IMG/VR virus record: IMGVR_UViG_3300037070_000843
Location: 1-20,892 of that record
Origin: a virus
Reading direction: 5' to 3' (one strand)
Length of the DNA: 20,892 bases
Made by a program: the position numbers and the translations under genes. The stretch's first letter is position 1; each line of letters starts with the position of its first letter. The notes below the pieces were generated by a model. It searched no databases, was not told the DNA's origin, and saw only the letters and a program-made list of their open reading frames with translations. Below are positions 1 to 20,892 of this stretch, piece by piece.

Positions 1-150
1 TGTGTGTAGGTATGATTCTTACCTTGGCTCTCAGACTGTGAGTATGAAATGCGAAATGAGGTACCTGTATTAGAACGCATGGCTTGTGCTCGCAAATAGG
101 TAATTGCTGGCCGCACAATTATCATAGGTACACTTCTCCACTGACACTTC
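1..150. other. AT-richer non-coding leader with repeated AGGTA half-sites
   Basis: This stretch is visibly richer in A/T than the rest of the window and holds no convincing gene. One frame is open to a TAG at 71-73, but it lacks the G/C third-position bias of every real gene here. The pentamer AGGTA occurs at 8-12, 59-63, 98-102 and 126-130, and its complement TACCT at 20-24 and 62-66; the pair at 59-66 forms the palindrome AGGTACCT. That is far more than expected by chance in 130 bases. The copies at 98 and 126 sit in ATAGGTA, the same string as the end of the promoter-like motif at 18882. The region may hold promoters or operators for the packaging genes or separate two genome arms; I cannot tell which. 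Confidence 0.5.
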
Positions 151-192
151 CGATCGGTCCTACGGTCCCCGTAGGGGACCTAGGACCGATCG
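151..192 (+). terminator. Long imperfect hairpin, possible transcription terminator
   Basis: Bases 151-162 pair perfectly with 181-192 (12 bp). Then, with one unpaired C at 163, bases 164-170 pair with 174-180 (7 bp) around a GTA loop. The whole is a 19-bp stem with one bulge. A moderately T-rich run (193-205) follows on the + strand and no T run follows on the other strand, so if it is an intrinsic terminator it acts on rightward transcription. It sits just before the first promoter-like motif at 242, repeating the terminator-then-promoter order seen near 9831-9888. It could instead be a processing site or a protein-binding palindrome. Confidence 0.5.
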
Positions 193-241
193 TCATTGTT
201 TCATTGTGCGGCTGAGAACCGTTCTCAAGTTGCGGGCACAG

Positions 242-263
242 GGGGACGGTCGGTACCTACTGG
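242..263 (+). promoter_or_regulatory. GGGGACG promoter-like motif, copy 1
   Basis: GGGGACG at 242-248, G at position 12 and CC at positions 15-16 of the element, then TACTGG at 258-263. The GTG start of the first gene lies at 265, two bases later. The geometry is identical to the copies at 2836, 9867, 15601 and 18882. The motif also contains a TACCT (254-258) like the half-sites in the leader. I read it as the promoter of the packaging unit; the function is inferred from placement and recurrence. Confidence 0.55.
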
Positions 264-264
264 C

Positions 265-744: not shown

Positions 745-745
745 G

Positions 746-1192
746 ATGCCGCTCCTCCCTGGGGAGGGTTGGAACGGCAAGGGCGAGGAGAAGGAACGGT
801 TCCTCGACTGGCTGTGCTTCGGCCCTGAACGTCAAGTAGGCCAGTCGCAGAACGAGTTTGCGAAGGTCCTCGGTGTCGGCCGTTCCACGTTGGGCGAGTG
901 GAAGCGTGACCACCAGTTCCGTCTCCGTTGGGAGGCCCGTCTCCGTGAGACGGTCCTGGCCCCCGACATCATCCATGATCAGCTCCGTACGCTGCATGAG
1001 ATCGCTACGTCGGGTGAGGCGAAAGACTCTGACCGCATCAATGCGATCACCCAATATCAGAAGCTGACGGGTGCCGCAGCTCCTGAAAGGCATGACCTGA
1101 AGGCGAGCACAGAAGGTGTGCGCCAGATGTCGGATGAGGAACTGATGGCTGAGCTGCAGGCTCGTGTAGGCCAGAAAGCGCTCAATGCGTAA
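746..1192 (+). CDS. terS: Terminase small subunit
   Basis: The DNA-recognition half of the packaging motor; it would bind the phage packaging site and hand DNA to the large subunit. The 148-residue size is usual for the family. Residues about 33-60 (SQNEFAKVLGVGRSTLGEWKR) form a clear helix-turn-helix. Residues 70-110 are helical and could be the oligomerisation core. The C-terminal segment 128-139 (QMSDEELMAELQ) is the kind of short acidic helix seen at the end of many small terminases. It starts one base after the previous stop, and its own stop overlaps the large-subunit ATG (TAATG at 1190-1194), so the two subunits are translationally coupled. Assignment rests on the helix-turn-helix plus the immediate large-terminase neighbour. 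Confidence 0.85.
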   Translation: MPLLPGEGWNGKGEEKERFLDWLCFGPERQVGQSQNEFAKVLGVGRSTLGEWKRDHQFRLRWEARLRETVLAPDIIHDQLRTLHEIATSGEAKDSDRINAITQYQKLTGAAAPERHDLKASTEGVRQMSDEELMAELQARVGQKALNA

Positions 1193-2835
1193 TGGCCGAT
1201 TTGTCCGAACTGCAGATCGAGCGAGAGCTTCTATGGCGGAAGTGCAAAGGCTCGAGCGCCGAGGACTTCGAGGCGTGCCTCTACTTCCTCGACAACTACT
1301 GGAAGATCCGCCACCCGAGCAAAGGGACGATCAGCTTCCCGATCCGTGAACGTCCCGCCCAGATGGAGACGCTCGAGACGGTCATGTCGTGCACGCAGTC
1401 GATCATCTTGAAGGCACGGCAGATCGGGTTCACGACCCTGTTCACGGCGTACATGTTCTGGCTGGCGTTCTTCTGGCCCGACAAGCTCGTGATCGTCCTG
1501 AGCAAGCGTGAGGACGACGCCAAGGACATCCTGAAGTTCGTGGTCCGAGGGTATGACCGTCTGCCCGAGTGGATCCGTGACCGTGGCCCGAAGCGGACGA
1601 ACGACAGCTCGCAGATCTTCTCGCTGTCGAACGAGTCGGAGATCAAGTCGTTCCCGTCGAACAACAACCCTGCTCGAGGCCAGGCCGCCTACCTCGTCGT
1701 GTTCGACGAGTTCGCCTTCCTCGAGGACCAGCACTCCGCCTGGGCGTCGGTGGAGCCGACGACCGACATCGGTGGGCGGGTCATCATCCTCTCCACCGCC
1801 AACGGCGGCGGATCCCTCTACGAGTCGATGTTCAATGCCGCCCTCGGCGGGCACGGCGAGATGGAGGCGATCTTCTACCCGTGGTCGGCTGTCCCTGATC
1901 GTGACATGGCGTGGTACGAGGCGAAGATCGAGGGCTTCCGTCGGGCGAACGCCGAGTGGATCATGCACCAGGAGTACCCGACGTCGCCTGAGGAGGCGTT
2001 CATCCGTTCGGGTCGTGCCGTGTTCGACCTGGATCTGGTGATCGAGCGGCGGGAGGCGATCATCAGGGGCAGCGACGACATCCCTGTGTCCGCCAAGGGG
2101 TACATCGCTCCGAAGGGCGGCGGGGAGGCGAAGCTGGCCCGCCACTTCGTGTGGCGTCAGGGGCAGGGCGAGTTCGAGGTGTGGCGTCAGCCCGACAAGG
2201 CGCACCGCTACGTGATGGGTGTCGACGTGTCGGAGGGCCTCGAACACGGCGACTTCTCGGTCTGCTCGGTGTACGACACGAAGACGAAGGAGAAGGTCGC
2301 CAAGTGGCGGGGCCACATCGACCCTGACCTGCTGGCGAAGGACATCGCCTGGCCGTTGGGCCACTTCTACGGCGGCGCCCTGATCGGCGTCGAGTCGAAC
2401 AACCACGGCCTCGTCACGCTGATCAAGCTGCGGGACCTGGCGTACCCGAGGCTGTTCCGCCGTCAGGATCGGGCCGCCCTCGGCCGCCCGACCTCGACGA
2501 AGCTGGGCTGGTACACGTCGAAGTCCAGCAAGGTCGAGATGATCGACGAGTTCCAGGAGGCGTTCCGTGAGGAGCTGGTGATCTACGACACGGGTGTGCT
2601 CGCCGAGATGCTGATGTACACCCGTGACGAGAAGGGCCGCATGAGCGGCTCGCCGTTCGACGACGAGGTGATGGCTGATGCGATCGCCAACCAGATGTTC
2701 CGCCACATGCACACCGTGTCGTGGCCCGAGGTCGAGTCAGACGCCTACACGTTCGGGTGGCTGGTCCGTCGGGACAAGGAACGGGTGAAGCGTGACGCCA
2801 ACGTCGGCATGGGCCGACGTCTTGGCGTGCGGTAG
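1192..2835 (+). CDS. terL: Terminase large subunit (packaging ATPase and nuclease)
   Basis: The motor that translocates DNA into the procapsid and cuts the concatemer; 547 residues, a normal length. Visible ATPase signatures are a deviant Walker A, KARQIGFTT (residues 74-82), a Walker B, LVVFDEF (168-173) followed by AFLED, and a coupling motif STANGG (201-206). The C-terminal RNase H-like nuclease is marked by acidic residues in VMGVDVSEG (Asp345), IGVESNNHG (Glu401) and SPFDDEVMADA (Asp490/491), the usual three metal ligands. ATG overlaps the small-subunit stop. Its own TAG stop at 2833-2835 abuts the second GGGGACG motif, so the packaging unit ends here. The family is certain; the packaging strategy (headful, cos or terminal repeats) cannot be read from the sequence. 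Confidence 0.96.
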   Translation: MADLSELQIERELLWRKCKGSSAEDFEACLYFLDNYWKIRHPSKGTISFPIRERPAQMETLETVMSCTQSIILKARQIGFTTLFTAYMFWLAFFWPDKLVIVLSKREDDAKDILKFVVRGYDRLPEWIRDRGPKRTNDSSQIFSLSNESEIKSFPSNNNPARGQAAYLVVFDEFAFLEDQHSAWASVEPTTDIGGRVIILSTANGGGSLYESMFNAALGGHGEMEAIFYPWSAVPDRDMAWYEAKIEGFRRANAEWIMHQEYPTSPEEAFIRSGRAVFDLDLVIERREAIIRGSDDIPVSAKGYIAPKGGGEAKLARHFVWRQGQGEFEVWRQPDKAHRYVMGVDVSEGLEHGDFSVCSVYDTKTKEKVAKWRGHIDPDLLAKDIAWPLGHFYGGALIGVESNNHGLVTLIKLRDLAYPRLFRRQDRAALGRPTSTKLGWYTSKSSKVEMIDEFQEAFREELVIYDTGVLAEMLMYTRDEKGRMSGSPFDDEVMADAIANQMFRHMHTVSWPEVESDAYTFGWLVRRDKERVKRDANVGMGRRLGVR

Positions 2836-3200: not shown

Positions 3201-3201
3201 C

Positions 3202-3333: not shown

Positions 3334-3419
3334 TGATGGAAGCGCTGCTGATCCCCCTCGGCTGGGTAGGTGCGATGTGGGCGTTGACCCGCATCGTCAC
3401 CACGTGGCCGCCCCGCTGA
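3333..3419 (+). CDS. 28-residue hydrophobic peptide preceding portal
   Basis: Begins with two tandem ATG codons (3333 and 3336) overlapping the previous stop and ends in TGA overlapping the portal ATG (TGATG at 3417-3421). The sequence (ALLIPLGWVGAMWALTRIVTTW) is largely hydrophobic with aromatic residues, enough for one short membrane span. It could be a third small membrane protein or a leader peptide whose translation feeds ribosomes into portal. Function is unknown, and it is short enough that translation should be considered probable rather than proven. Confidence 0.5.
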   Translation: MMEALLIPLGWVGAMWALTRIVTTWPPR

Positions 3420-5518
3420 TGGCACGGGCGTCGAAGAAGACCGAGGGGCAGCTCTCCGCCTACCGTTCGTGCATCGAGTCGGCGAAGGGGTTCCGACGGC
3501 AAGAGGATCTCGACGGGCGGGACGGCCTGTGGGCCACCCTCGTCGACCTGTACAAGGGCAAGCACTGGCCGAAGAACGCCCCGTACAAGGACCTCATCAC
3601 CATCAACATCTCGAAGGCGACAGTCGACGTCATCCTGCCGTCCATCGCCATCAACTACCCGTCGGTGACGATCACGGCCCTGACGCCTGAGGCGTTCGAC
3701 GGCCAGGTCATCCTCGAGGCGGTCATCAACTACTGGTGGCGCCACTTCGACGTCATGCCCGAGGTCCAGGCCGCCGTCAAGGACTACCTGATCACAGGTC
3801 ACGGCTGGCTGAAGGTCGGGTACCGCTACGTCGAGGAGGAGCAGCCCGACTACGCCGCCGACGACGACCTGTTCGAGCAGAAGCGGGCCGAGGTCGAGGA
3901 GTACGCCGAGGCGAACCCGCACCTGGCTGGCGACCTCCCGACCGACGACGAGATCAAAGAGGAAGTCGGCGGGCAGACGAAGCTGCTGGTCGTCGAGGAC
4001 CGTCCGTTCGTGGAGCGTGTCTCCACCCACGACGTGTACGTCGACCCCGAGGCGACGTCGATGCGGGACATCTCGTGGATCGCCCAGCGGGTCGTGAAGA
4101 CCCTGCGGGACGTGCGGGACAACGAGGACTACAACAAGACGGCCCGCCGTGAGATCGAGGCCGACGAGGCGCTCGACACCGAGTGGCTCGACTGGGACCC
4201 GAACCGTCGTGAGGCGGTCCTGAAGGACGACATCAAGCGGGTCACCCTGTGGGAGTTCTACGACGTGCGTCGTGGGACGACCTGCACGTTCGCCGAGTCG
4301 GGCATGCGGTTCCTGGTGGAGCCTGAGGAGATCCCGTACGACTTTGGGCATCCGTTCCTGATGCTCCGCAACTACGAGGTCCCCGACCAGTTCTACCCGA
4401 TGGGTGAACTCGAGGCGCTCGAGGGGCTTCAGAACGAGCTGAACTACACCCGCACGTCGATGCTGAACGACGCCAAGGCGCAGCGGCGCCGTTGGCTGTA
4501 CCGTGCCGACGCTCTCGGCCAGAAGGCCCGTGAAGCCCTCACCTCCGACGAGGACAACATCGGCATCCCGATCGAGGGCCAGGACCCGCTGGACTCTGTG
4601 ATCGCACAGATGCCGTCGAACACGGTCAACGCCGAGATGTACCAGAACAACGACGTCATCATGGGCGACATCAACACCGTGACGGCGATCTCCGAGTACC
4701 AGCGTGGTGACGCCCCCGAGATCCGTCGGACGGCCACCGAGGCGTCGATCATCCAGGACGCCGCCAACGCCCGTGCCGCCTTCAAGCTCTCCCAGATCGA
4801 GCGGTACATGGGCGAGGTCGCCGAGTACCTGTCGAAGCTGGCCCAGGAGTTCGTCGACGAGAAGCAGACGTCGATGATCACAGGCAAGAACGGGCAGCCG
4901 TTCTGGTTCGAGTTCGACTCCGAGGACATCCAGGGCGAGTACGCTTTCTCCGTCGAGGCGGGATCCACCGAGCCGAAGAACGAGGTCACACGCCGACGCA
5001 CGGCCCTCGACCTGTTGCAGGCGCTCGGCCCGCTGATGGCCCCGAACCCCGATGGCTCGCCTGGACTGATCAACGTCCCCAACCTGTTGACCCATGTCCT
5101 CGAGTCGGGGTTCGGGATCAAGCAGCCCGAGAAGTTCCTGACCGCCCCCGTCGACCCCGTCACCGAGGGGATGGGCGACCCTGTGATGGCCGAGCAGCAG
5201 AAGATGGCTCAGCAGCTTCAGGGTGCGCCCGCCTTGCCTCCTGGCATGGAGGGCGGCGAGGACCTTCCTCCCGAGGTGATGATGCAGCTCATGGCCGAGC
5301 TGGGCCTCACGACGTCGCCTGGCGCCCCACCCGCCCCGCTTGCCACAGGCCCCAGTGCTCCTCCTGGCGGACTCCCCCCTGGCACGGTGACGGGTGCGGG
5401 CGCCAGCGAACTTCCGCCCGAACTGATCGCCCTGCTCACGCAGGACCCGTCAGGTGCGGACGCCATCCCACCCGAGATCCTTGCGCAACTGCAGGGCCAA
5501 GTAGGACTACAGGTCTGA
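3419..5518 (+). CDS. Portal protein
   Basis: Forms the dodecameric ring at one capsid vertex, docks the terminase and later the connector. From ATG 3419 the protein has 699 residues. I choose this start over an in-frame GTG at 3377 because it overlaps the preceding stop as TGATG, the pattern used throughout the window. Portal-type features include an N-terminal helical region, YLITGHGWLKVGYRYVEE entering the wing, an ELEALEGLQNELNYTRTSM helix, and a long stem-like helical stretch around TATEASIIQDAANARAA. The last ~90 residues are rich in Pro, Gly, Met and Leu (PPGMEGGEDLPPEV, GAPPAPLATGPSAPPGG) and look flexible. The length and layout resemble P22-type portals of short-tailed phages. Confidence 0.93.
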   Translation: MARASKKTEGQLSAYRSCIESAKGFRRQEDLDGRDGLWATLVDLYKGKHWPKNAPYKDLITINISKATVDVILPSIAINYPSVTITALTPEAFDGQVILEAVINYWWRHFDVMPEVQAAVKDYLITGHGWLKVGYRYVEEEQPDYAADDDLFEQKRAEVEEYAEANPHLAGDLPTDDEIKEEVGGQTKLLVVEDRPFVERVSTHDVYVDPEATSMRDISWIAQRVVKTLRDVRDNEDYNKTARREIEADEALDTEWLDWDPNRREAVLKDDIKRVTLWEFYDVRRGTTCTFAESGMRFLVEPEEIPYDFGHPFLMLRNYEVPDQFYPMGELEALEGLQNELNYTRTSMLNDAKAQRRRWLYRADALGQKAREALTSDEDNIGIPIEGQDPLDSVIAQMPSNTVNAEMYQNNDVIMGDINTVTAISEYQRGDAPEIRRTATEASIIQDAANARAAFKLSQIERYMGEVAEYLSKLAQEFVDEKQTSMITGKNGQPFWFEFDSEDIQGEYAFSVEAGSTEPKNEVTRRRTALDLLQALGPLMAPNPDGSPGLINVPNLLTHVLESGFGIKQPEKFLTAPVDPVTEGMGDPVMAEQQKMAQQLQGAPALPPGMEGGEDLPPEVMMQLMAELGLTTSPGAPPAPLATGPSAPPGGLPPGTVTGAGASELPPELIALLTQDPSGADAIPPEILAQLQGQVGLQV

Positions 5519-5521
5519 TCC

Positions 5522-7383: not shown

Positions 7384-8301
7384 GTGTCCCCAGTGAACAT
7401 GCCCGAGGACGATTCGCAGAACATCCTCGTGCCGCAAGGAAGTGCCGAAGACGAGTCAGTCGAAGCGGATCTCGGAGACGAGACAACCGTCGAGGCGGAG
7501 GAGTCCGAGGAGGCCAGGGCCAACATGCCCGAGGACCCGACGGAGTTCGACGAGGTCGAATCCGCCGAGGACGAGGGCGACAGTTCGGAGCTGTACACCA
7601 TCACGGTGGACGGCGAGGAACTCGAGGTGTCCCTGGAAGAAGCCCTGAACGGGTACCAGCGTCAGCAAGCGTTCACACGCAAGACGCAGGAACTGGCTCA
7701 GGAGCGTGAGTCTCTGACTCACATGGCGCAACTGGCGCAGGCTTTGGATCGTGACCCGCAGGGTACGGTCCTACGGCTCGCAGAGAACCTGGGCATCGAC
7801 CTGGGTGCGAGCACAACCCCGCAGGCCCCGCAGCCGACCAGCCCTCTCGAGGGAGTCGACTTGGAGGACCTGGATCCCGAGGTTGTCAGCGTGCTTCAGA
7901 CCTTGACCGCCGAGATCCAGTCGCTGAAAGGCGAAGTGGGCACGGTGGCGAGTTGGCGTCAGGAGCAGACGGAAGCCGAGCAGTTGGCTGCCATCGACCG
8001 TGAGGCCGAGGCAGTGATGCTCAGGCACGGCGTCCCCGACCTGGACAAGGGGGAGCTGTACCGCTTCGCAGGTGACCACAACATCGGTGACCTGGATGCG
8101 GCCTACGTCTACATGCGTGAGGTCCAAGCTGCTTCGGCGGCCCCTCCCGCAGCTCAGTCGAAGCGAACGAAGAAGCAGGCTCTCCGTACGGAGGGTGGCC
8201 GACATCGGACGTCGACCAAGCCCATCGCTCGAGGCAAGATGAGTCTCGAGGAAGCGATGGACAGGGCGGCCTCTGATCTCAGCATGTCGTTCCCCGACTG
8301 A
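7384..8301 (+). CDS. Capsid scaffolding protein
   Basis: Directs procapsid assembly and is removed on maturation. 305 residues from GTG 7384, supported by AGAAAGGG just upstream; ATG 7399 would be too far from that site. The N-terminal ~70 residues are strongly acidic. Residues 72-108 (YTITVDGEELEVSLEEAL, then NGYQRQQAFTRKTQEL) are a very characteristic scaffold segment. Helical, glutamine-rich stretches follow (about 165-215), consistent with elongated coiled-coil dimers. Residues 259-286 are basic (KRTKKQALR, RHRTSTKPIARGK) and precede a short C-terminal helix, as in scaffolds whose basic C-terminus contacts the coat protein. No serine protease motif is evident, so a fused maturation protease is unlikely. 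It lies immediately upstream of the major capsid gene. Confidence 0.88.
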   Translation: MSPVNMPEDDSQNILVPQGSAEDESVEADLGDETTVEAEESEEARANMPEDPTEFDEVESAEDEGDSSELYTITVDGEELEVSLEEALNGYQRQQAFTRKTQELAQERESLTHMAQLAQALDRDPQGTVLRLAENLGIDLGASTTPQAPQPTSPLEGVDLEDLDPEVVSVLQTLTAEIQSLKGEVGTVASWRQEQTEAEQLAAIDREAEAVMLRHGVPDLDKGELYRFAGDHNIGDLDAAYVYMREVQAASAAPPAAQSKRTKKQALRTEGGRHRTSTKPIARGKMSLEEAMDRAASDLSMSFPD

Positions 8302-8352: not shown

Positions 8353-9315
8353 ATGGCTGCAGGCCACCCCGACTACGACACCTTCCTCAGCTCGACGCTG
8401 AACAACTACCGCTCGACCCTGGTCGACAACGTCTTCAGCGCCAACCCGCTGTTCCTGAAGCTGAAGGAACGTGTCCGCTACGAGGACGGCGGAGACAAGA
8501 TCTCCGTGCCCCTCATGTACGGGCAGAACTCCACGGTGAAGACCTACGACGCCTGGGAGCGCCTGGACCTGACCCCGCAGGAAGGCATCACCACGGCGCT
8601 GTTCGACTGGGGCCAGATCGCTGGCTCCATCGGCATCAACGGCATCGAGGAGTTCAAGAACTCGGGCAAGTCCCGCATCTTCAACCTGCTCAAGGCCCGC
8701 ACCAAGCAGACCGAGATGTCGCTCACCGAGGCCTTCGGCGAGATGTCGTTCCTGGCGGGCACCGACCCCGAGCGTGACTGGCTGGGCCTCGACGCCCTCA
8801 TCGGCGACGAGAACAGCACCGTCACCACCGTCGGCGGCATCGACTGCACCGACTCGGCCAACGACTGGTGGAGGTCCGTGGTCGTCGACGTCGACGCCCT
8901 CGCCTCGCAGGTCCGTTCGGACGCCGTGTGGACCAACGTCTACAACACGGCCTCGAAGGGCAGCGACAAGCCCGACATCATCGTCACCACCCAGGACCTG
9001 TTCGAGCACTACGAGGCGAACCTCGCCACGGACATCCGCTACACGAGCACCGACTCGGCGGACGCCCGCTTCAACCACGTGCTGTTCAAGAAGGTCCCCG
9101 TCTTCTACGACGACTACTGCCAGAGCGGCAGGACCTACTTCATCAACTCGAGCCACCTCGAGCTGGTGGGTGCGAAGGGCACCTGGTTCCGCCAGACCCC
9201 CTTCGAGACGGTCCCCGACGTCGACGGCAAGTGGGCCAACATTCTCACCTACGGGGGCATGGTGATCGACAACCGTCGGCGCCAGGGCCTCGTCCGTGAC
9301 CAGGACATCGCCTGA
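8353..9315 (+). CDS. Major capsid protein
   Basis: Main shell protein, probably with the HK97 fold (family inference). 320 residues; GGAG at 8340-8343 lies nine bases before the ATG. The N-terminal segment (LVDNVFSANPLFLKLKERV) followed by GGDKISVPLMYGQNSTVKTY is typical of coat proteins, in which an N-terminal helix is followed by a glycine-rich turn and beta strands. GLDALIGDENSTVTTVGGID marks the middle. The C-terminal part (THLELVGAKGTWFRQTPFE is its approximate pattern) ends in strands with conserved aromatics. It follows scaffold and is itself followed by a strong hairpin terminator at 9330, as expected for a very highly expressed gene. Confidence 0.9.
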   Translation: MAAGHPDYDTFLSSTLNNYRSTLVDNVFSANPLFLKLKERVRYEDGGDKISVPLMYGQNSTVKTYDAWERLDLTPQEGITTALFDWGQIAGSIGINGIEEFKNSGKSRIFNLLKARTKQTEMSLTEAFGEMSFLAGTDPERDWLGLDALIGDENSTVTTVGGIDCTDSANDWWRSVVVDVDALASQVRSDAVWTNVYNTASKGSDKPDIIVTTQDLFEHYEANLATDIRYTSTDSADARFNHVLFKKVPVFYDDYCQSGRTYFINSSHLELVGAKGTWFRQTPFETVPDVDGKWANILTYGGMVIDNRRRQGLVRDQDIA

Positions 9316-9866: not shown

Positions 9867-9888
9867 GGGGACGTTCGGCCCCATAGGT
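9867..9888 (+). promoter_or_regulatory. GGGGACG promoter-like motif, copy 4 (directly after terminator)
   Basis: GGGGACG at 9867-9873, G at element position 12, CCCC ending at 9882 and ATAGGT at 9883-9888. Of all copies this is the one most clearly in a promoter position, because a strong terminator ends just upstream. The next gene begins at ATG 9965, leaving a ~75-base leader that includes a run of C. AAGGAA (9955-9960) serves as its ribosome-binding site. Confidence 0.6.
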
Positions 9889-9964
9889 GAGGGTGAGCGG
9901 GCGGGTCGGCTCGGGCATCGACGCTGGGCCACCGCCCCCCCCTCCCACTCGACCAAGGAACGAC

Positions 9965-10642
9965 ATGGACCTTCAGACGATGCGGCAGTTCGTGCTCACG
10001 CACGAGGACCTCGAGGCCGAAGACCTCGAGGAGACGCTGCTGGACGGCTGGGCCAACGAGGCGTTCACCCGCATCCACCGTCTCGTCGCCTCCTGGCCAC
10101 GCTTCGACTCGACCGTGTCCCTCGCCACGGTGGCGGGCACGTCAGCCTACGACCACGGCCTGAAGCGGGTCGAGACGATCTACGGCGACAACGGCCTCAT
10201 CGAGTGGATCGGCCACGTCGAAGCCCAACGCAAGTACCTCCTGAACGGGGTGCAGACGGGACGGCCGTACCGTTACTCGACCCGTGGCTCGCAGGTCCAT
10301 CTGTGGCCGCAACCTGACGCCGTGTACACGCTGACCCTCGAGGGGAAGCGTGTGCCGACGCCCTGGCCGCCCCTGACGGGAGCGCCAGGCTCCGAGCCTG
10401 ACCTGCCCGAGGACTTCCACCGCCTCATCCTGTCGTGGATGCTGCACCGTGCGCTCCTGCAGCAGGACGACGGTGAGCGTGCCCAGGCCGAACTGTCGCA
10501 CTACCAGAGCCTGCTGGGTGAGCTGATCACCGACGAGGTCCGTGCCGACCTGGCGGAGCCGCTGATCATCGGCGGCCGCCGTCGGCCGTCGACGTACCCG
10601 CCTGGCACCATGCCGTACGACGTTGACACTCTGCCGTCGTGA
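9965..10642 (+). CDS. Head-tail connector (adaptor) protein
   Basis: 225 residues from ATG 9965. I prefer this start because AAGGAA lies four bases upstream and longer in-frame starts would cross the promoter-like motif. Features are an acidic N-terminal helix pair (LTHEDLEAEDLEETLLDGWANEAF), then strands with aromatics (VASWPRFDSTVSLATVAGTS) and a C-terminal helical block (DLPEDFHRLILSWMLHRALL) typical of portal-docking adaptor proteins such as P22 gp4 or T7 gp11. The GTGA overlap at 10639-10642 joins it to the nozzle-like protein. In short-tailed phages these rings extend the portal channel and receive the nozzle. Family by layout and position, not by a firm motif. Confidence 0.75.
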   Translation: MDLQTMRQFVLTHEDLEAEDLEETLLDGWANEAFTRIHRLVASWPRFDSTVSLATVAGTSAYDHGLKRVETIYGDNGLIEWIGHVEAQRKYLLNGVQTGRPYRYSTRGSQVHLWPQPDAVYTLTLEGKRVPTPWPPLTGAPGSEPDLPEDFHRLILSWMLHRALLQQDDGERAQAELSHYQSLLGELITDEVRADLAEPLIIGGRRRPSTYPPGTMPYDVDTLPS

Positions 10643-12252: not shown

Positions 12253-12905
12253 TGCCGTTCTCCACCCCCAACACGTTCCTCGACGCAGCGTCGATCGAGG
12301 CCGACGAGTTCAACGAGAACTTCGAGGCCATCGCCGACGCCATCGACGGCGACCTGATCCACGCTGACGGCACGGTGGCGTTCACGGACGTCCCGTCGGG
12401 TCCTGCGACGAACCCGTCGTCCAACAACCACTTGGCCCGCAAGCGTTACGTAGACGAGAAGGCGGGCGGCACGAAGGCCGCCTACGTGAAGACGAAGGAC
12501 TCGGGCGGGACCCTCACGACCCTGAGGGCCAACACGACGTCGGACGCCGTCACCGACCTGACCATCTCGGTCGACGAGGAGGACGGCCACTGGTATCGGG
12601 CGACGTTCAACGTCCCCGAGATCCTGCTCAACCAGTCCACCACGCTGGGTGTGATGCCCCGCCTGGCTGTGATCATCAAGCGGGGCGGCACCGAGGTGGC
12701 CCGCCAGTGGACGGAGAACACCAACGACCTGGGCGGCGCTGGCGTGACGCTGGTGACCCGCCCCCGTCTGGCGACGGCGACGGCGACGGTCGACTGGACC
12801 GTGTTCGTCCGCAACGGCTGGACCGCTGAGGCGAACGTCCGCTACAAGGCGGACACCAACTTCCCGATGTACCACTACGTCGAGGATCTCGGCCTGGGCC
12901 TCTGA
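12252..12905 (+). CDS. Tail-fibre-associated protein (fibre base / adaptor)
   Basis: 217 residues. The N-terminus has the short repetitive layout DAASIEADEFNENFEAIADA, then NNHLARKRYVDEKA; the latter is a YVDE-type motif frequent where trimeric fibres begin. The middle and C-terminus are beta-rich with alternating strands (SVDEEDGHWYRATFNV, TLVTRPRLATATATVDWTVF). ATG overlaps the nozzle stop and the stop overlaps the next, much larger fibre gene. It may be the fibre's tail-binding base or a small separate fibre. Confidence 0.6.
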   Translation: MPFSTPNTFLDAASIEADEFNENFEAIADAIDGDLIHADGTVAFTDVPSGPATNPSSNNHLARKRYVDEKAGGTKAAYVKTKDSGGTLTTLRANTTSDAVTDLTISVDEEDGHWYRATFNVPEILLNQSTTLGVMPRLAVIIKRGGTEVARQWTENTNDLGGAGVTLVTRPRLATATATVDWTVFVRNGWTAEANVRYKADTNFPMYHYVEDLGLGL

Positions 12906-15589
12906 TGGTCCAGCGCTTCAAGATCCCCCGCCGCCTCGAGCGGCCCGTTGAGCAGACGTTCCGCAGGCTGGCGGACTACCTGATCGACCGCATCGCCGAG
13001 CTGCAGGCGTCGATCGACGCCATCGAGGTCGGGGCGGGCGGCGACGTCGCCACCCACATCGCCGACACCACCGACGCCCACGACGCCTCAGCCATCTCGT
13101 ACGCAGGCGCCTCAGGGATCGCTTCCACCGACGTGGAGGGGGCGATCGACGAGGTCAACAGCGACGTGCTCGCACACCTGGGCGACACCGTCGACGCACA
13201 CGATGCGTCGGCGATCTCGTACGCTGGGGCGACAGGGATCTCCGCCACCGAGGTCGAGGGCGCCCTCGACGAGATCAACGGCGACCAGATCGCCACGGCC
13301 GCCGTGGCGGCCGCTGCGCTCCCGAAGGCAGGCGGGGACGTCACAGGCACGGTGACGTTCAACGCCACGGGCGGCAAGCTGATCATGCCGTACGACGGCG
13401 ACCAGTCAGGTGAGGGCATCACCTACCTGGACGCCTCGGGGAACCCGATGTTCCGTCTCCACTCGGTGGGCGGCGGGAGCATGTACTTCAAGATGATCTC
13501 GGGTTCAGCGATCTCGGGGATCACGTTCGCTGACACGGCGGGCCGTAACGCCATGCGGATCCTCGACGGCGGGGCGACAGGCATGGGTACCGCCTCGCCC
13601 GCTGGCGTGTTCCACTGCCTGCCGCTGTCGGCGGGTGCCCGAGGGTTCGTGGTCGAGTCGAAGTCGGGGCAGTCGCAGCCGACGTTCATCGTTGGCGACT
13701 CGTCGCAGGTGTCGAAGATCACGATGCTGGAGTCGGCGTTCAACCTGTACAACCTGAACTCGGGCTACTTCTCGGAAGCCACCAACTACGAGAAGCTGGT
13801 GCTGTCGCCTGTCTCGAACGTGTACCGTTTCAACTCCGTCAAGGGAGGGACGGGCACCGTCCGTGGCATGGAGTGGGCGATGGGCGGCACCGTGATGATG
13901 GGCCTGTCGTCGGCTGGTGTGCTGACGATGAACGCCCAGCAGATCAAGAACGTCGCAGACCCCACCTCGGGCCAGGACGTCGCCACACGGGCGTGGGTCC
14001 TCGGCCAGGCGCTCATCCCGAACGACGGAGCGAACCCTGCGCAGGTCGGGTCTGTGGCCGCAACCCCTGGCGTGCAGTCGGTGTTCGTGAAGTGGGCGCA
14101 GAACACCGAGTCCGACATGATCGGCGGGTTCGGCACCTACGTGGTCGAGATCGATACGGACAGCGGGTTCTCCGCCCCGTTCGTCTCCAAGGAAGTCGGC
14201 TCGGCGTTCGTGGCCTTCACGGGCCTCGCCGCAGGAGTCCAGTACCACGTGCGGGTCAAGGCGAAGGACGCCTGGGGGAACCTGTCCTCGTCGTGGTCGA
14301 CGACAGCGTCGACGACCACGCTGTACGTCACCAACAGCGACATCGCCGTCGGGACGATCAACGCCAACGTCCTCGTGGCGAACAGCATCACGGCAGCGGA
14401 GATCGCTGCGGGCACGATCACCACCACCCAGATCGCTGCGGGGACGATCGTCGCCTCGGACATCCAGGCGGCCACGATCACGGGGTCGCTGATCGCCGCA
14501 GGCACCATCCAGGCTGTCAACATCGCTGCGGGGACGATCACCTCGACGGAGATCGCTGCCGACACGATCACGTCGGGCAACATCCAGGCGGGAACGATCG
14601 TCGCTTCGGACATCGCCACGGGGACGATCACGTCGAACGAGATCGCTGCGGGGACCATCACCGCTGCGGACATCGCCGCCAACACGATCACCGCCGACGA
14701 GATCGACGTCCTCGAGCTGGACGTCGGCCAGTACATCAAGGGCGCAGGGTTCGACGGCGGCGGGTCCCAGGACCTGGCGGCGACGGCAGGCTGGATGCTC
14801 GACGAGTTCGGCCTCCAGGCGTACAACGCCATCCTGCGTGGGTCGCTCCGCACCTACGACGTGGCGGGCGCCTACGTCGAGGTCGACGGCAACTCGGTGG
14901 AGTTCTTCCCGTCCGACATCGACCCCTCCGAGGAACCTGCTTCGATCACTGCCCTCGACGACTACCAGCTCTCGATCAAGGCGTCGGACTCGGCGGTCGT
15001 GCAGCCTGAGATCATCCTGGCGGGCGAATCGTCCACGACGTTCGGCGGGTCGGCTGTGCACGTCAAGGCGAAACGGCACCGCCTGGGCGTCGACTCGGGC
15101 GGGGCGCCAGGCCACATCACGCACCCTGGGACGGTCGGTCTGATCTTGGACTCGACGGGCCTGGGGCAGACGATCGGCTCGGCAGGCTCGTACAGCACGT
15201 TGAACCTGACGTCAGGTGCCGTCCTGTACAACGACGGCAGCATCGACACGACGGACGACTATTGGGAGGCCCCGTCGTACTGGTTCGACGACGCCCAGAC
15301 GGGCGTGTTCGTGACGGTCCACTCGACGCTACTGATCGGCAACGGCGGGTCGACGGCCATCAAGGGCGCACGGTTCCAGATTTACAGCATCTCGGGCGGT
15401 ACGTCGGTGCGGGTGGTGGTGTTCGGCGGTGCCAGCTTCGCAGGGTCCGAGGACGGCAGGTTCTCAGGGTCCACGGTATTCAGGTTGGCTGGCCCGAACC
15501 AGGCGATCCGTCTGCAGGGCTTCCAGAACACGGGCGGCACACGTGACGCCGAGTACACGCTGTGCATCACATACAACGGCTTCTACTGA
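12905..15589 (+). CDS. Large tail fibre with fibronectin III domain and decapeptide repeats
   Basis: 894 residues, presumably trimeric, host-recognising. Order: a basic N-terminal helix; two near-identical 40-residue repeats (about 51-90 and 91-130) built on DAHDASAISYAGA...VEGA.DE.N; a collar-like GGDVTGTVTF segment at about 140; a beta region with GGGSMYFKM; NVADPTSGQDVATRAWV (about 350-366), a motif shared by many fibres; a fibronectin type III-like domain about 377-475 (VFVKWAQNTESD, YHVRVKAKDAWGN); a block of thirteen decapeptides (477-606); and a C-terminal beta domain. It starts in TGATG overlap. It is probably the primary adsorption device. The multi-domain layout suggests assembly from reusable modules. 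Confidence 0.85.
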   Translation: MVQRFKIPRRLERPVEQTFRRLADYLIDRIAELQASIDAIEVGAGGDVATHIADTTDAHDASAISYAGASGIASTDVEGAIDEVNSDVLAHLGDTVDAHDASAISYAGATGISATEVEGALDEINGDQIATAAVAAAALPKAGGDVTGTVTFNATGGKLIMPYDGDQSGEGITYLDASGNPMFRLHSVGGGSMYFKMISGSAISGITFADTAGRNAMRILDGGATGMGTASPAGVFHCLPLSAGARGFVVESKSGQSQPTFIVGDSSQVSKITMLESAFNLYNLNSGYFSEATNYEKLVLSPVSNVYRFNSVKGGTGTVRGMEWAMGGTVMMGLSSAGVLTMNAQQIKNVADPTSGQDVATRAWVLGQALIPNDGANPAQVGSVAATPGVQSVFVKWAQNTESDMIGGFGTYVVEIDTDSGFSAPFVSKEVGSAFVAFTGLAAGVQYHVRVKAKDAWGNLSSSWSTTASTTTLYVTNSDIAVGTINANVLVANSITAAEIAAGTITTTQIAAGTIVASDIQAATITGSLIAAGTIQAVNIAAGTITSTEIAADTITSGNIQAGTIVASDIATGTITSNEIAAGTITAADIAANTITADEIDVLELDVGQYIKGAGFDGGGSQDLAATAGWMLDEFGLQAYNAILRGSLRTYDVAGAYVEVDGNSVEFFPSDIDPSEEPASITALDDYQLSIKASDSAVVQPEIILAGESSTTFGGSAVHVKAKRHRLGVDSGGAPGHITHPGTVGLILDSTGLGQTIGSAGSYSTLNLTSGAVLYNDGSIDTTDDYWEAPSYWFDDAQTGVFVTVHSTLLIGNGGSTAIKGARFQIYSISGGTSVRVVVFGGASFAGSEDGRFSGSTVFRLAGPNQAIRLQGFQNTGGTRDAEYTLCITYNGFY
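13055..13294 (+). repeat. Two tandem 120-bp (40-residue) repeats in the tail fibre
   Basis: Units 13055-13174 and 13175-13294 encode 40 residues each that share HDASAISYAGA, G-I-(A/S), VEGA and DE(V/I)N at equal positions. The DNA differs mainly at third positions, so the duplication is old or kept apart to avoid recombination. It probably extends the fibre shaft. Confidence 0.8.
14333..14722 (+). repeat. Thirteen 30-bp (ten-residue) repeats in the tail fibre
   Basis: Residues 477-606 repeat a ten-residue unit of the type I-x-A-x-x-I-A-A-G-T (for example STEIAAGTIT, ASDIATGTIT). The third, fourth and fifth positions are often small and the isoleucines align. In DNA this is a 30-base period with ATCGCTGCGG at many joints. 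Such repeats usually fold as a triple-stranded beta-helix shaft. It is a protein repeat and not a CRISPR array: there are no spacers. Confidence 0.85.
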
Positions 15590-15600
15590 GAGTAGGTGAA

Positions 15601-15622: not shown

Positions 15623-15623
15623 G

Positions 15624-16076: not shown

Positions 16077-17233
16077 TGGCCTACGACGACGGCTACTTCG
16101 GCTCGAGGGTGTCGCCCCGTGGAGCCACCATCTCCGAGGCGGGCGGCAAGCGTGTCATCCGTGGCACCAAGGAACGGGATCGCCGCAACACAGGCATCTT
16201 CGCCCCTGGCGTCCTCGAGGACGAACTCGCCCGACGGCAAGCCCTCGACGCCAACGGCCAGCGGGCCGACCGTCTCTCCACCCTCGCAGGCGCAGGCCAG
16301 CAGTCCCTCATCGAGCAGATCCTGGCGGCCTCGGCCGCTGAGACGCAGGCCGCCTCAGGCGGCGGCGTCCCGTCTCTCGACGACGTCCTCGCCCCCTACA
16401 TCCAGGCCCGCCAGTCCGCCAACGAGGCGTACCAGACGGCACGGCCCGTCATCCACGACGCCTTCAACGACATGCTCCACGACCTCTCGGGCGGCCAGCG
16501 GGACCTGACCCGCCAGTCCCGCCAGGAGTCGAGGGGCCAGGCCCGTGACGTCCAGGCCTCCCAGAACGAGAACCGTCAGCAGACCGCCTCCGCCCAACAG
16601 GACCTCGCCACCCAGGCTGGCGGAGACGTCGCAGGGTCCCTGGCCCAGATGCTCGCAGGCACGGGCGGGGCTGTGTCCGCCGACATCCGCCAGTCCGCAC
16701 AGGGCGACCGTCAGCTCGCCTCCCGCATCGACCAGGTGGGACGGCAGGAGACACGGGCGACCCGTGAAGATGCGGGGCTGTCCCGAGCCAACGCCCTCGG
16801 GACCGCCCAGAACAACCTGGACTCGATCCTGAACGCCATCGGCCTCGAGGAGGCCCAGGCCAAGTCGGAATGGGAGACGGCCAAGGCCGCCTCCTCGTCC
16901 GCCGAGGCTGCGGGCACAGCCAACGCCGATGCGGCTGTCGGTGAGCTGCAGTCCACGATCAACCAGGCGACGGCGGCGGCCGCCCAGTCGGCGCTGTCGG
17001 CCACGTTGGCTGCGGGTCAGCCGTGGCAGAAGGCGCTGGACCTGATCCGTGCCGACGCAGGGAACCTGGCTCGTGGCATGACCGAGTACGGCGTGCCGAT
17101 CGACCCTCGGACGATCATCCGCATGATCCGCCAGCTCGGTCCCGCCTCCCAGTCGAACGCTGACGCCCAGCGCCGCCAGGGCCAGGAGCAGCAGCAGGCC
17201 CCCGAGGACATCCTCGCTCAGCTCGGCCTCTGA
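16076..17233 (+). CDS. Ala/Gln-rich helical protein, probable internal virion (ejection) protein
   Basis: 385 residues, ATG in TGATG overlap with the previous gene. It is dominated by Ala, Gln, Ser and Arg and predicted to be long amphipathic helix (DLTRQSRQESRGQARDVQAS, TAKAASSSAEAAGTANADAA), without cysteines or catalytic motifs. The N-terminal ~45 residues are basic and polar (GKRVIRGTKERDRRNTG). Such low-complexity helical proteins are typical of the internal core that is ejected with the DNA (T7 gp14-gp16 or P22 gp7, gp16 and gp20 by analogy). The stop again overlaps the start of the M15-like peptidase (TGATG, 17231-17235), supporting joint packaging. Confidence 0.62.
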   Translation: MAYDDGYFGSRVSPRGATISEAGGKRVIRGTKERDRRNTGIFAPGVLEDELARRQALDANGQRADRLSTLAGAGQQSLIEQILAASAAETQAASGGGVPSLDDVLAPYIQARQSANEAYQTARPVIHDAFNDMLHDLSGGQRDLTRQSRQESRGQARDVQASQNENRQQTASAQQDLATQAGGDVAGSLAQMLAGTGGAVSADIRQSAQGDRQLASRIDQVGRQETRATREDAGLSRANALGTAQNNLDSILNAIGLEEAQAKSEWETAKAASSSAEAAGTANADAAVGELQSTINQATAAAAQSALSATLAAGQPWQKALDLIRADAGNLARGMTEYGVPIDPRTIIRMIRQLGPASQSNADAQRRQGQEQQQAPEDILAQLGL

Positions 17234-17772
17234 TGCCGACCTTCGGCCAGTTGGCCCCTGGCAACGGGCCGCAACAGCGGGAGAAGACAGGCAAGCCGAT
17301 CGTCGAGGTCGAGCCGCCTTCGTTCACGTCGGGTCAGCGGGGCAACCCGTTCCAGGCCGTCCAGAACGCCAACGCCCAACGGCAGGGGTTCGGCGGGATC
17401 CCCGCCCACTCGCCCCCGCCTGCCCCCGCAGCGTCACCGACGCAGGGGTCCTCGTCGTCGCCGACGGGCGACTTCTCGGCGGCAGGGAACCTCACCTCGT
17501 GGGGTGGCTTCCAGATGGACGCCTCGCTCGTCCCCTATGCGCAGGGGCTGACGGGTCTGGGCCTGACCTTGTCGGGCGGGTACCGTGACCCTGCCCGCAA
17601 CGCCGCCGTCAACGGTGTCCCGAACTCGTGGCACCTGTCGGGCCGTGCTCTCGACCTGAGCGGCACGACCGCCCAGATGCAGGCGGGCGCCGCCTGGGCA
17701 CGTCAGCACGGGGCCAACGAGGTCCTGATCCACAACGCAGGCTCGGGCCTGCATCTGCACGTGGCGTGGTGA
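17233..17772 (+). CDS. M15-type peptidoglycan peptidase (D,D-carboxypeptidase/L-Ala-D-Glu-like)
   Basis: Likely cleaves peptide cross-links or stems in the cell wall, probably as a virion enzyme. 179 residues; zinc ligands are His134, Asp141 (NSWHLSGRALDLSG) and His176 in GLHLHVAW, with His174 beside it and Glu163 as a candidate catalytic residue, all in the expected order of the M15 fold. GYRDPARN at 116-123 is a further family signature. Residues 1-80 are a proline- and glutamine-rich, disordered linker. Within it, NPFQAVQNANAQRQ (38-51) is also present in the next enzyme. Its stop is followed, after one base, by the transglycosylase ATG. No signal peptide is present. Confidence 0.83.
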   Translation: MPTFGQLAPGNGPQQREKTGKPIVEVEPPSFTSGQRGNPFQAVQNANAQRQGFGGIPAHSPPPAPAASPTQGSSSSPTGDFSAAGNLTSWGGFQMDASLVPYAQGLTGLGLTLSGGYRDPARNAAVNGVPNSWHLSGRALDLSGTTAQMQAGAAWARQHGANEVLIHNAGSGLHLHVAW

Positions 17773-17773
17773 C

Positions 17774-18340
17774 ATGCCTCTCCTGACCCCTGGCCGTGAC
17801 AGCTCGGCGTCACGCTTCAACACGATGCGGCAGAAGCAGGCCGAGATCCTGCAGCCTGGCCGTCAGGGTGCGAAGGGACGGTTCGCCTCCCAGGCCACCA
17901 ACCCGTTCGATCACGTCCAGCAGCTCCAGGCGCAACGGCAGGCGCCGATCATGCAGTCCCCGATCTTCGAGCAGCCGACGCCTGAGCCTGCGGGCGATGC
18001 GTCGACTGCGCTGGCGGGCAACGTCACACCGATGGGGTCGTCGGATCTCCGTGGCCTCGTCATGGATCTCGCCAAGTCGCACGGCTGGCACACAGGCAAC
18101 GAGTGGAACAGCCTCGTCGAGCTGCTGAACCGTGAGTCGTCGTGGAACCCTGCGGCCGACAACCCGTCTTCGACGGCTTACGGCCTGTTCCAGTTCCTCG
18201 ACTCCACGTGGGCGGGCACAGGCTACCAACGCTCGTCCGATCCTCGGATCCAGACCCTGGCTGGCTTGCAGTACATCCTGAACCGCTACGGGTCGCCGTC
18301 GGCGGCCCTCGCTTTCCACAACTCCCACAACTGGTACTGA
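17774..18340 (+). CDS. SLT-type lytic transglycosylase
   Basis: Cleaves the beta-1,4 glycosidic bond between MurNAc and GlcNAc without water. 188 residues. The catalytic Glu121 lies in LLNRESSWNPAADNPSS, followed by AYGLFQFLDSTW (135-146), which is the Gly-Leu-Phe-Gln signature of the goose-lysozyme/SLT fold. The helical C-terminus (SDPRIQTLAGLQYILNRYGS, then PSAALAFHNSHNWY) closes the domain. Residues 1-85 form a polar linker with NPFDHVQQLQAQRQ (43-56), matching the linker of the upstream peptidase. No signal peptide is present. The coupled organisation with the M15-like enzyme and the metzincin suggests a multi-enzyme envelope-penetration set carried in the particle. Confidence 0.88.
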   Translation: MPLLTPGRDSSASRFNTMRQKQAEILQPGRQGAKGRFASQATNPFDHVQQLQAQRQAPIMQSPIFEQPTPEPAGDASTALAGNVTPMGSSDLRGLVMDLAKSHGWHTGNEWNSLVELLNRESSWNPAADNPSSTAYGLFQFLDSTWAGTGYQRSSDPRIQTLAGLQYILNRYGSPSAALAFHNSHNWY

Positions 18341-18341
18341 C

Positions 18342-18881
18342 ATGAGCGTCTACGCTGTGCACAAGACGGGCAACGGGTCGGTTATCACCTGGAACGGGAA
18401 GCCGATCGAGTACCGCATCAACTGGCATCACTTCGAGGGCTGGCACCGCACGATCATCAACGAGCAGATGGAGGACATCTGCGCACGGGTCCAGTCGGGG
18501 GCCAAGAACCCAGGCCAGACGTCGCAGAAGCCCGACTCGGGCTGGGACGTGTGGACGAACTACAAGCCGACCGACATCTTCGTGTACGCCCTGTTCGACG
18601 GCGGAGCCAACCAGTGGCTCGGCAAGTCGAACCAGCACTGGGTCGGGGACCAGTACCTCGGTGCGACCGTCGTCCTGAACGCCTTCTACTTCGACCACCC
18701 CACCTGGGGTACCACCAACACGTTCCGTTCGATCGTCGCCCACGAGATCGGGCACGCTGTCGGCCTCGAACACCCGACCGACGAGAGCCAGCTCATGGGG
18801 GCGCACCTCGACGTGCGCCTGCCGTGGAAGTCTGGGGACCTCGCTGGCTTCCAGCGTCTGCGGGACTCGACCCCGAACTGA
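18342..18881 (+). CDS. Metzincin-type zinc metalloprotease
   Basis: A zinc endopeptidase, 179 residues. The signature is HEIGHAVGLEH (134-144): the three zinc-binding His and catalytic Glu135 are followed by Met152 in SQLMGAH, a likely Met-turn, which together define metzincins, most like matrixins. The fold upstream is beta-rich (KPTDIFVYALFDGG, YLGATVVLNAFYFDHP), as in the N-terminal part of that domain. No signal peptide, prodomain cysteine or membrane span is visible, so it would not be made as a secreted zymogen. It starts one base after the transglycosylase stop. Its substrate may be an S-layer, surface or capsid protein; this is not shown by the sequence. Confidence 0.83.
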   Translation: MSVYAVHKTGNGSVITWNGKPIEYRINWHHFEGWHRTIINEQMEDICARVQSGAKNPGQTSQKPDSGWDVWTNYKPTDIFVYALFDGGANQWLGKSNQHWVGDQYLGATVVLNAFYFDHPTWGTTNTFRSIVAHEIGHAVGLEHPTDESQLMGAHLDVRLPWKSGDLAGFQRLRDSTPN

Positions 18882-18903
18882 GGGGACGTTACGCCCCATA
18901 GGT
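18882..18903 (+). promoter_or_regulatory. GGGGACG promoter-like motif, copy 6
   Basis: GGGGACG at 18882-18888 begins directly after the metzincin stop, with G at element position 12, CCCC at 18894-18897 and ATAGGT at 18898-18903. The ATG of the giant gene is at 18908, only four bases further, without a conventional ribosome-binding site. An AGGTA half-site (18900-18904) matches those in the left leader. Confidence 0.6.
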
Positions 18904-18907
18904 AGAC

Positions 18908-20892
18908 ATGGGACGCTACGAATCGCTCCTAGGTCAGGACAGCGGTAGTGAAGGCAACAACTACGGCTACCTGAACCTCCCTGACACGTCCATCCCCAAC
19001 CAGGGGGAGGGGGCGACTGTCGGTGGCGTCAACACCCAGCTCGAGTCGCTGCGCAACGCCCTCATCCAGGCCCGCACAGCCAACGAGGTCGACCAGGACT
19101 CTGGGATCTTCGACCAGGCGAAGGACATCGCCACAGGCGCCGCAGGCGGCCTCGGCAACGCCGTCCTGAAGACCCTCGAGGTCCTCGACGGTGGCCGTGC
19201 CCTCGTCGTGTCGGGCCTCACCGAGCTGGACGACCTGATCCGTGATCCTGAGGATGCTTCGTGGTCGGACGTAGCGCAGCAGACACGGGATCACATTGGG
19301 GTCGGGGACTGGCTCGACGACAGCGACCTGCCGTGGGCTGTCCGCTCGGGCCTGGGGTTCGTTGGCGACGTCCTCCTCGACCCCACCACGTACGCCACCC
19401 TCGGCACCTCCGCTGCAGCCAAGCCGCTCGTCGGCGCAGGCGTTGAAGGTGCCGAAGCGATCGGCGAGAGGGTCGCCCGTGAAGGTGCGGAGACGCTGGC
19501 TGAGCGTGTCGCACGCCGTGGCTCCGACGAGCTGGTCGAGCAGGCCCTCGGCGAGGCCCCCCTCGGGGCCGTCGAGTTCCAGCCTGGACGGATCCTCCAC
19601 GCCCGTGACGTCGCCCGTCGGCTCCTGAACCCGACCGACGAGCTGTCGCAGGCGTTCCCCGAGTCCCGCCTGCGGGAGGTGGCGGCCGACGTCCTCCACA
19701 ACCGCAGCCCCGCCTCGGTCCCGTCCGAGATGCGGCCGTTCGTCGGGATCGACACGGGCCTGTTCTGGGGCCTCGGGCGCAACAAGGTGCGGATCCCTGG
19801 CACGGACGTGATCGCCGAGCGGGTCGGTCGCCTCACTGGTGCCGCCAAGCGGGGCCTGTTCGACAAGCTCCCCGTGCCCGACAGTGCACGGCTGTGGCCG
19901 AAGCTGACGGAGCTGCGCCGTGAGGGTCCCGAGGGTGCGCTGAAGGCGTTCGAGTTGGAGATGGAGAACGCCAACGCCAACTTCCTCCGCAACACTGTCC
20001 GCTCGTTCCTGTTCGAGGGCGTCGACGTTCTCCGCAAGGAACACGGCGAGGAGTTCCTCCGCACCGACGACCTGTTCCGCCAGCTCGACGAGGGCGTCGA
20101 CTCGCCTGCCGCCAACGGGATCCGTGACCTCCTCGAGCAGGCCCGCAAGATCACGGGCGAGATCACGAAGCGTGAGGTCCCCGAGTTCGAGAACTACGTC
20201 CCGTACCGTCGGACCCGAGAGCTGCTCGAGGTCCTGTCGGAGAAGGGCGGCAAGCAGGTCCGCAACGGCGACGAGGCGTTCCGCAACTTCCGTCAGCTCC
20301 GCCCTGGCGGCGAGTTCCTCGGCCACGAGCTGGACGGCCAGTCGTCGATCCGTGACCAGGTCGAGGCGATCGCCAAAGAGACGTTCGGCGACGACTACGT
20401 CCAGGTCCTGCGGGACGACCCGCTGGCCCTGGTCGGCGCCTACATCGACGAGATCAGCGGCCCGATCCACGAGGCGTTCCTCCTGAAGCGCCTCGACGAG
20501 CGGGGCCTGTTGGAGACGTTCCGTCCCGTCGACTGGAAGCAGGCCCGCAAGCGGGGCCAGCGCATCGCAGGCGAAGGCGTGCACGACGTCACCGAGCAGG
20601 CGCAGCGGCAGGGCATCGAGAACGAGATCATCGACGCCAAGGGCAAGGTGTCGAAGACCCGCCGCCGTGGCTTCGCTCTCGGCCGTGAGATCCAGGACCT
20701 GGACACGGCGATCGACGAGGGTGAGCTGTCGGCGATCTCGGCAGGCTCGAACGCCGAGGACATCGGGGCACGGGCGTCCCGTCAGCGGTGGGACACGCAC
20801 GACGAGGCAGCCGACCTGATCACCCGATCGATCGGCGACATCGCCGAGATGGGCGACGAGGACCTGGTCAGGGCCGTGGCCGACGAGAACCT
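18908..20892 (+). CDS. Very large virion protein, 5' part (runs off window)
   Basis: An uninterrupted frame from ATG 18908 to the window edge, 661 complete codons without a stop, so the full protein is larger. Residues about 60-130 are helical. Residues about 130-163 (GVGDWLDDSDLPWAVRSG, then GFVGDVLLDPTTYATLG) form an amphipathic, membrane-interacting-looking segment. Long helices follow, and about 427-439 (EFENYVPYRRTRE) is a recognisable polar patch. Very large helical proteins after the virion enzymes are typical of internal or ejected proteins in podoviruses. It is preceded by its own promoter-like motif. No enzyme domain is visible yet; one may lie further downstream. Codon use matches the rest of the window. 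Confidence 0.8.
   Translation, partial: MGRYESLLGQDSGSEGNNYGYLNLPDTSIPNQGEGATVGGVNTQLESLRNALIQARTANEVDQDSGIFDQAKDIATGAAGGLGNAVLKTLEVLDGGRALVVSGLTELDDLIRDPEDASWSDVAQQTRDHIGVGDWLDDSDLPWAVRSGLGFVGDVLLDPTTYATLGTSAAAKPLVGAGVEGAEAIGERVAREGAETLAERVARRGSDELVEQALGEAPLGAVEFQPGRILHARDVARRLLNPTDELSQAFPESRLREVAADVLHNRSPASVPSEMRPFVGIDTGLFWGLGRNKVRIPGTDVIAERVGRLTGAAKRGLFDKLPVPDSARLWPKLTELRREGPEGALKAFELEMENANANFLRNTVRSFLFEGVDVLRKEHGEEFLRTDDLFRQLDEGVDSPAANGIRDLLEQARKITGEITKREVPEFENYVPYRRTRELLEVLSEKGGKQVRNGDEAFRNFRQLRPGGEFLGHELDGQSSIRDQVEAIAKETFGDDYVQVLRDDPLALVGAYIDEISGPIHEAFLLKRLDERGLLETFRPVDWKQARKRGQRIAGEGVHDVTEQAQRQGIENEIIDAKGKVSKTRRRGFALGREIQDLDTAIDEGELSAISAGSNAEDIGARASRQRWDTHDEAADLITRSIGDIAEMGDEDLVRAVADEN

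Follow-up and report, generated by a model that had tools for sequence, protein, structure and literature searches.

The window analysed here, a linear virus record of 20,892 nucleotides (IMG/VR record IMGVR_UViG_3300037070_000843, positions 1 to 20,892), holds a podovirus structural module and represents the structural half of the genome of an uncultured podovirus, whose replication half lies outside the record. It contains no copy of CCGG or CGCG on either strand, and almost all of its relatives likewise lack at least one palindromic tetramer. Only particular words are missing, and they are missing completely; they are palindromes plus a handful of recognised type IIS words, and the set differs between clades. 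These features strongly support selection against type II restriction specificities, with escape from the words by synonymous change. We infer that restriction enzymes of the hosts are the agents, and place at roughly 0.87 the probability that the absences represent elimination of sites under type II restriction by hosts.

Words absent from the window

The window has a GC content of 66.2%, from which mononucleotide frequencies predict 251 copies each of CCGG and CGCG. A Markov-2 (trinucleotide) model lowers the expectation to 157 and 153, respectively, and a null that shuffles synonymous codons while preserving every protein and overall codon usage gives 175.7±8.2 and 174.9±8.9, never falling under 148 in 200 shuffles. 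A sequence-only reading of this DNA had reported both words as wholly missing and had proposed a count of all tetramers against nulls of this kind; the exact count is zero for each, and under the codon null they are by far the most depleted tetramers, with no other coming close. Both words thus have observed/expected <0.1 and an expectation above 15 sites, the threshold used for site elimination. The same reading described other palindromes as common, which holds for TCGA (274 copies) and GATC (202), both at or above expectation, and less well for GGCC and GCGC, which in coding DNA are mildly low (220 vs. 268 expected) and moderately low though present (86 vs. 156), respectively. A hairpin-type explanation does not fit, since GCGC is kept.

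When about 70 known type II words were tested against the codon null, further absences emerged that the sequence-only reading had missed. GRGCYC is lacking altogether (0 vs. 42.7 expected, the minimum in 150 shuffles being 24), as are CAGCTG (0 vs. 11.6) and GAGACC/GGTCTC (0 vs. 14.5); CTGGAG is near-absent (3 vs. 25.3), and the zero count of CTCTTC (10.6 expected) makes a weaker case. It is orthodox type II words that are avoided, and words of like composition are normal, as GGWCC, GCNGC, GANTC and CCWGG illustrate.

Codon choice around the absent words

That the coding sequence adapts around CCGG and CGCG, as had also been suggested, proves to be true without exception. The proline codon CCG is never used ahead of a codon starting with G (0/127), whereas it accounts for 141/197 prolines elsewhere, and arginine CGG is never used after a codon ending in C (0/200, vs. 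96/197 elsewhere). For alanine, GCG is excluded after C (0/305 vs. 203/427) and GCC is excluded before GG (0/69 vs. 376/663). Context-dependent codon choice is all-or-none, and the ban is obeyed throughout the coding sequence of the window.

The sites could in principle have been lost through mutation rather than selection, for example if methylated cytosines within CCGG and CGCG had been deaminated, and among the one-step neighbours TCGG/CCGA (1.33) and TGCG/CGCA (1.45) are indeed some of the more enriched. However, the other product, CTGG/CCAG, is not enriched (0.94), whereas neighbours that require a transversion are (ACGG 1.26, CAGG 1.26, CGGG 1.18). Moreover, mutation pressure would leave residual sites rather than none, and GATC, AGCT, TTAA and AATT have been lost just as totally from relatives, making this a highly improbable origin of the pattern.

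Absences across the family

The podovirus family to which the window belongs is seen almost only in metagenomes. Its best relative in GenBank is MW202803 (Podoviridae sp. ct52p938), itself a metagenomic podovirus, circular and 42 kb in length, from Manatee Spring, with which the window shares homologous large terminase subunit (TerL; 38% identity), portal (40%) and major capsid (33%) proteins in a conserved order. Like the window, MW202803 has no CCGG (0/180) and no GRGCYC over its 42 kb, but unlike the window it has kept CGCG (93/199). Further relatives are from IMG/VR and were gathered using two-member TerL and major capsid protein alignments as the query, giving 131 non-redundant contigs with a length of 8 kb or more, 30 of which (31–44 kb) were read end to end.

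Scoring absence only where at least seven copies of a tetramer are expected, one or more palindromic tetramers are wholly missing from 124 of the 131 contigs (95%). AGCT is lost from 90 contigs, GATC from 87, CCGG from 77, CGCG from 53 and GGCC from 52; TCGA (50), ACGT (45), TTAA (6), AATT (5) and ATAT (3) are rarer full absences, and no contig is entirely without CATG, CTAG, GCGC, GTAC, TATA or TGCA (0/131). After thinning, 41 of 44 lineages at <80% portal identity and 9 of 11 at <60% still lack a word. The absences run along the full length of the 30 contigs read end to end. For instance, G022 has lost seven words (ACGT 0/128, AGCT 0/145, CCGG 0/68, CGCG 0/57, GATC 0/108, GGCC 0/76 and TCGA 0/89), the GC-rich G015 (69%) has lost two (CCGG 0/258 and AGCT 0/118), and G006 is without AATT, ACGT, AGCT, ATAT, CCGG, CGCG, GATC and TTAA, with GGCC and TATA nearly gone.

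A control family was built from TerL relatives of MW202795, itself a podovirus that carries WhiB and comes from the spring that yielded MW202803; one or more tetramers are missing in only 5 of its 56 contigs (Fisher p = 3e-32, a value that overstates independence since the contigs within each family are kin). Four of six further outgroup phages show nothing alike; of the other two, Anabaena phage A-4L is without GATC and GGCC, and Mx9 has almost no GATC. These comparisons bear on whether the absences might be a by-product of base composition or codon usage, or an artefact of assembly or library preparation. The window is GC-rich and its codons are strongly biased, as such an explanation would have it, but the codon shuffle nevertheless yields about 175 copies of each word, the same words are gone from relatives spanning GC contents of 45% to 69% in many separate metagenomes as well as from the GenBank entry MW202803, and control phages from similar data do not have the pattern. 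The chance that composition or artefact is responsible is close to negligible.

Inheritance of the absent sets

The sets of absent words follow the portal tree, that is, they are inherited and change stepwise. Parsimony requires 7–16 changes per common word, compared with 33–41 when labels are shuffled. The groups on the tree are marked by loss of CCGG (including the window, MW202803, G015 and two contigs from marine metagenome-assembled genomes, MAGs), of GATC, of GATC with CGCG, and of AGCT with TTAA, alongside a large crown clade that lacks seven words. The window is a deep branch whose exact placement is unsure, because it has about 46% portal identity to all of its nearest relatives.

In the seven-word crown clade (31 contigs, 608 kb) each of the words is present in 0 copies where 1,089–2,450 would be expected. 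The longer words CCWGG (18/1307), GRGCYC (5/98) and GWGCWC (30/345) have nearly gone as well, and others are depleted, namely CGWCG (63/486), GTGCAC (15/154), ATGCAT (25/223), GAATTC (26/140), GTMKAC (45/246), GAAGAC (32/227) and GAATGC (41/325). By comparison, observed/expected is 0.99 for GGWCC, 1.39 for GANTC and 1.25 for GCNGC, and GTNAC and CTNAG match or exceed their expected numbers. The depleted words are ones that we take to be type II recognition words, and the clade as a whole perhaps avoids 15–20 specificities. From a count of 0 in 2,450, and under an assumed, simple two-state model, scaled selection against a site (2Ns) is above about 9; this value applies to AGCT in the seven-word clade and to GATC in the GATC-only group.

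Restriction by hosts as the probable agent of selection

Under the restriction reading, unmethylated sites on incoming phage DNA would be cut by host enzymes, for which the cognate sites in the case of the window virus would be CCGG, CGCG, GRGCYC, CAGCTG, GGTCTC and perhaps CTCTTC. Old sites would have been lost mainly through synonymous change, and almost all mutations that create a new one would be removed by selection. The phages would therefore depend on the absence of sites rather than on methylation of their own DNA, and the banned words would shift clade by clade as hosts, or the restriction enzymes of hosts, change. The sequence-only reading had envisaged two restriction specificities; its appeal to selection has stood up well, but the number was too low, since at least five are indicated in the window and perhaps 15–20 in one clade of relatives.

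No restriction endonuclease was detected among 151 representative proteins of the relatives (PADLOC and Pfam; among the Pfam matches listed, 25 of 29 families), nor, over the same scope, any DNA methylase, the one exception lying elsewhere. This is a cytosine-5 DNA methylase encoded by the L226 phage contig (G031:C16:19415-20392) beside GP88-like and DUF932-like phage genes, and the contig is still without CCGG. Among the window proteins searched against Pfam, which represent the structural half of the genome only, there was no methylase match. The relative G002 encodes ArdA, and both this and the methylase of L226 are consistent with exposure to restriction. A single phage integrase match among the relatives bears on whether these phages are temperate, as does the small number of family contigs, three, in a scan of 84,980 species genomes.

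The selective agent might instead be encoded by the phages, if they carried site-specific endonucleases with no matching methylase, for degradation of host DNA or exclusion of rivals, and so could not bear the sites themselves. Such an enzyme could be sought in the PD-(D/E)XK nuclease gene that is nearly universal in the family, or among its many unannotated genes, of which clusters c36–c39 occur in exactly the nine seven-site genomes. However, the PD-(D/E)XK protein belongs to the PDDEXK_1 (recombination nuclease) family and is common to phages with quite different banned sets, the nine genomes form one clade so that shared descent would equally give the c36–c39 pattern, and no gene cluster tracks CCGG, AGCT or CGCG, those linked to the absent sets all being confined to the crown clade. 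Taken with the lack of PADLOC endonuclease matches in the 151 proteins, and with the perhaps 15 or more specificities avoided by the seven-site clade, which exceed the available coding space, this makes a phage-borne nuclease quite unlikely.

Restriction by hosts leads to the question of which hosts these are. WhiB genes are present in seven relatives and point to Actinomycetota as the hosts of those seven, whiB being treated as an actinophage marker (PMC6802176; PMC10202952). No WhiB match was found among the window proteins in the same Pfam search of the structural half. When WhiB was used as bait for unrelated actinophages, ten loci were recovered, mostly from the window's own family. A separate observation concerns the 6.5 kb contig L324, which encodes WhiB but gave no detected family match; it has GATC at 0/22 and is possibly an unrelated actinophage that avoids this word. 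Cytosine-5 methylases are found in 60 of 296 genomes of G031's class; genomes of about 1 Mb from this class (G435, G439, G375, G351, G443 and G366) carry strongly conserved type II-like cytosine-5 methylases.

Several results weigh against host restriction. The sequence-only reading had proposed a search of candidate hosts for matching restriction–modification systems; the RE_HpaII family (PF09561) is present in 0 of 296 Actinomycetota genomes, a weak test as it concerns one Pfam family and restriction endonucleases diverge fast, and neither this search nor a scan of species genomes identified a host with cognate enzymes. The scan covered 84,980 species genomes and encountered only three contigs of the family. 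The sole MAG with a close relative, an Acidimicrobiaceae TMED189 genome holding L226, was considered as a host and rejected, having a GC content of 33% compared with 46% for the phage contig and no depletion of CCGG (47/38); the L226 contig is probably mis-binned. Furthermore, a few relatives, mostly fragments, show no absent tetramer (G029, L130, L151 and L159), and a search of these for an N6/N4 or C5 methylase found none.

A broader proposal, which we regard as slightly better than evenly balanced, is that this widespread podovirus family as a whole defends itself mainly by ridding its genomes of restriction sites entirely, with words lost one after the other, up to eight of the 16 palindromic tetramers and perhaps ten longer sites. 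From phage sequence alone, the lost words could then be read as a barcode for the restriction enzymes that uncultured host guilds possess.

Relation to known site avoidance

Site elimination by phages is already known; it is the completeness, multiplicity and family-wide spread that look new. In a survey that covers non-temperate phages, elimination (observed/expected <0.1) was found for about 7% of phage–site pairs and in around a tenth of viral genomes, and was confined almost entirely to orthodox type II sites (PMC6286503). As in that survey, the words lost here are orthodox type II words, but 95% of the contigs of one family have one or more tetramers at exactly zero, many of them two to eight, and the set is inherited and changes by clade. 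The survey also began from known host enzymes, whereas here the host enzymes are predicted from the phage sequences. Anabaena phage A-4L (KF356198) is similar in that it is a podovirus whose portal is distantly related (24%) and whose genome has GATC at 0/97 and GGCC at 0/41; it differs in lacking two tetramers only, in having a cyanobacterial host and in falling outside the family. By description only, the gene content of the relatives resembles that of Planktophila phages E7 and F5, which are about 39 kb with 45% GC and encode WhiB, a sigma-70 factor, a glycosyltransferase and ArdA (PMC10202952). No report of a family with one to eight tetramers at zero in nearly every member was found in the literature searched, subscription papers being outside the search.

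As a rule, avoidance of sites is incomplete and linked to just one enzyme or two, whereas here it is absolute, multi-site and heritable across a family, and absolute elimination sets a bound on the selection acting per site. The genomes appear to record the restriction enzymes carried by their hosts. For uncultured aquatic bacteria, the banned words allow predictions about methylomes and enzymes that can be put to the test. They also offer a sequence-only marker for pairing phages with hosts in groups that lack CRISPR spacers, Ca. Nanopelagicales being an example (PMC10202952). By the same token, the gains on the tree are a natural series that bears on how quickly phages delete sites and on whether sites may be regained.

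Gene content of the window

The features of the window are as follows.

1–20892, whole record: no CCGG, CGCG, GRGCYC, CAGCTG or GAGACC/GGTCTC on either strand (exact counts)
746–1192, plus strand: probable small terminase subunit (PHROG 2538/7344, E 7e-5 to 3e-4)
1192–2835, plus strand: large terminase subunit (Pfam Terminase_6N 5.7e-7; PHROG 2 1.9e-34; 38% identity to MW202803)
3419–5518, plus strand: portal protein, SU10/P22 type (Pfam SU10_portal 1.9e-22; 40% identity to MW202803; basis of the family tree)
7384–8301, plus strand: scaffolding protein (PHROG 3927, 1.5e-13)
8353–9315, plus strand: major capsid protein (PHROG 9953, 2.2e-53)
9887–10642, plus strand: head–tail adaptor, SU10 type (Pfam SU10_adaptor 9.3e-22)
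10639–12252, plus strand: virion structural (phage-stabilisation-like) protein (PHROG 3287, 2.3e-17)
12905–15589, plus strand: tail fibre-like structural protein (PHROG 26466/13518/892)
17233–17772, plus strand: M15-type peptidase, lysis or entry (Pfam Peptidase_M15_3 1.8e-7)
17774–18340, plus strand: SLT transglycosylase (Pfam SLT 6.6e-8)
18342–18881, plus strand: matrixin-like metallopeptidase (Pfam Peptidase_M10 7.5e-7)
18908–20892, plus strand: start of a long open frame that runs off the end (661 aa, open-ended), probably an internal virion protein judging by its position

Replication genes are represented in the relatives L206/L207 (G022), which encode a TOTE-type archaeo-eukaryotic primase, a DnaB-like helicase, RusA, a PD-(D/E)XK nuclease, a MoxR-type AAA ATPase and a DUF7192 protein. 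In the window, the matrixin-like zinc metallopeptidase (18342–18881), with its HEIGHAVGLEH motif, adjoins the transglycosylase and M15 peptidase genes; for a podovirus, such a gene for lysis or entry is unusual.
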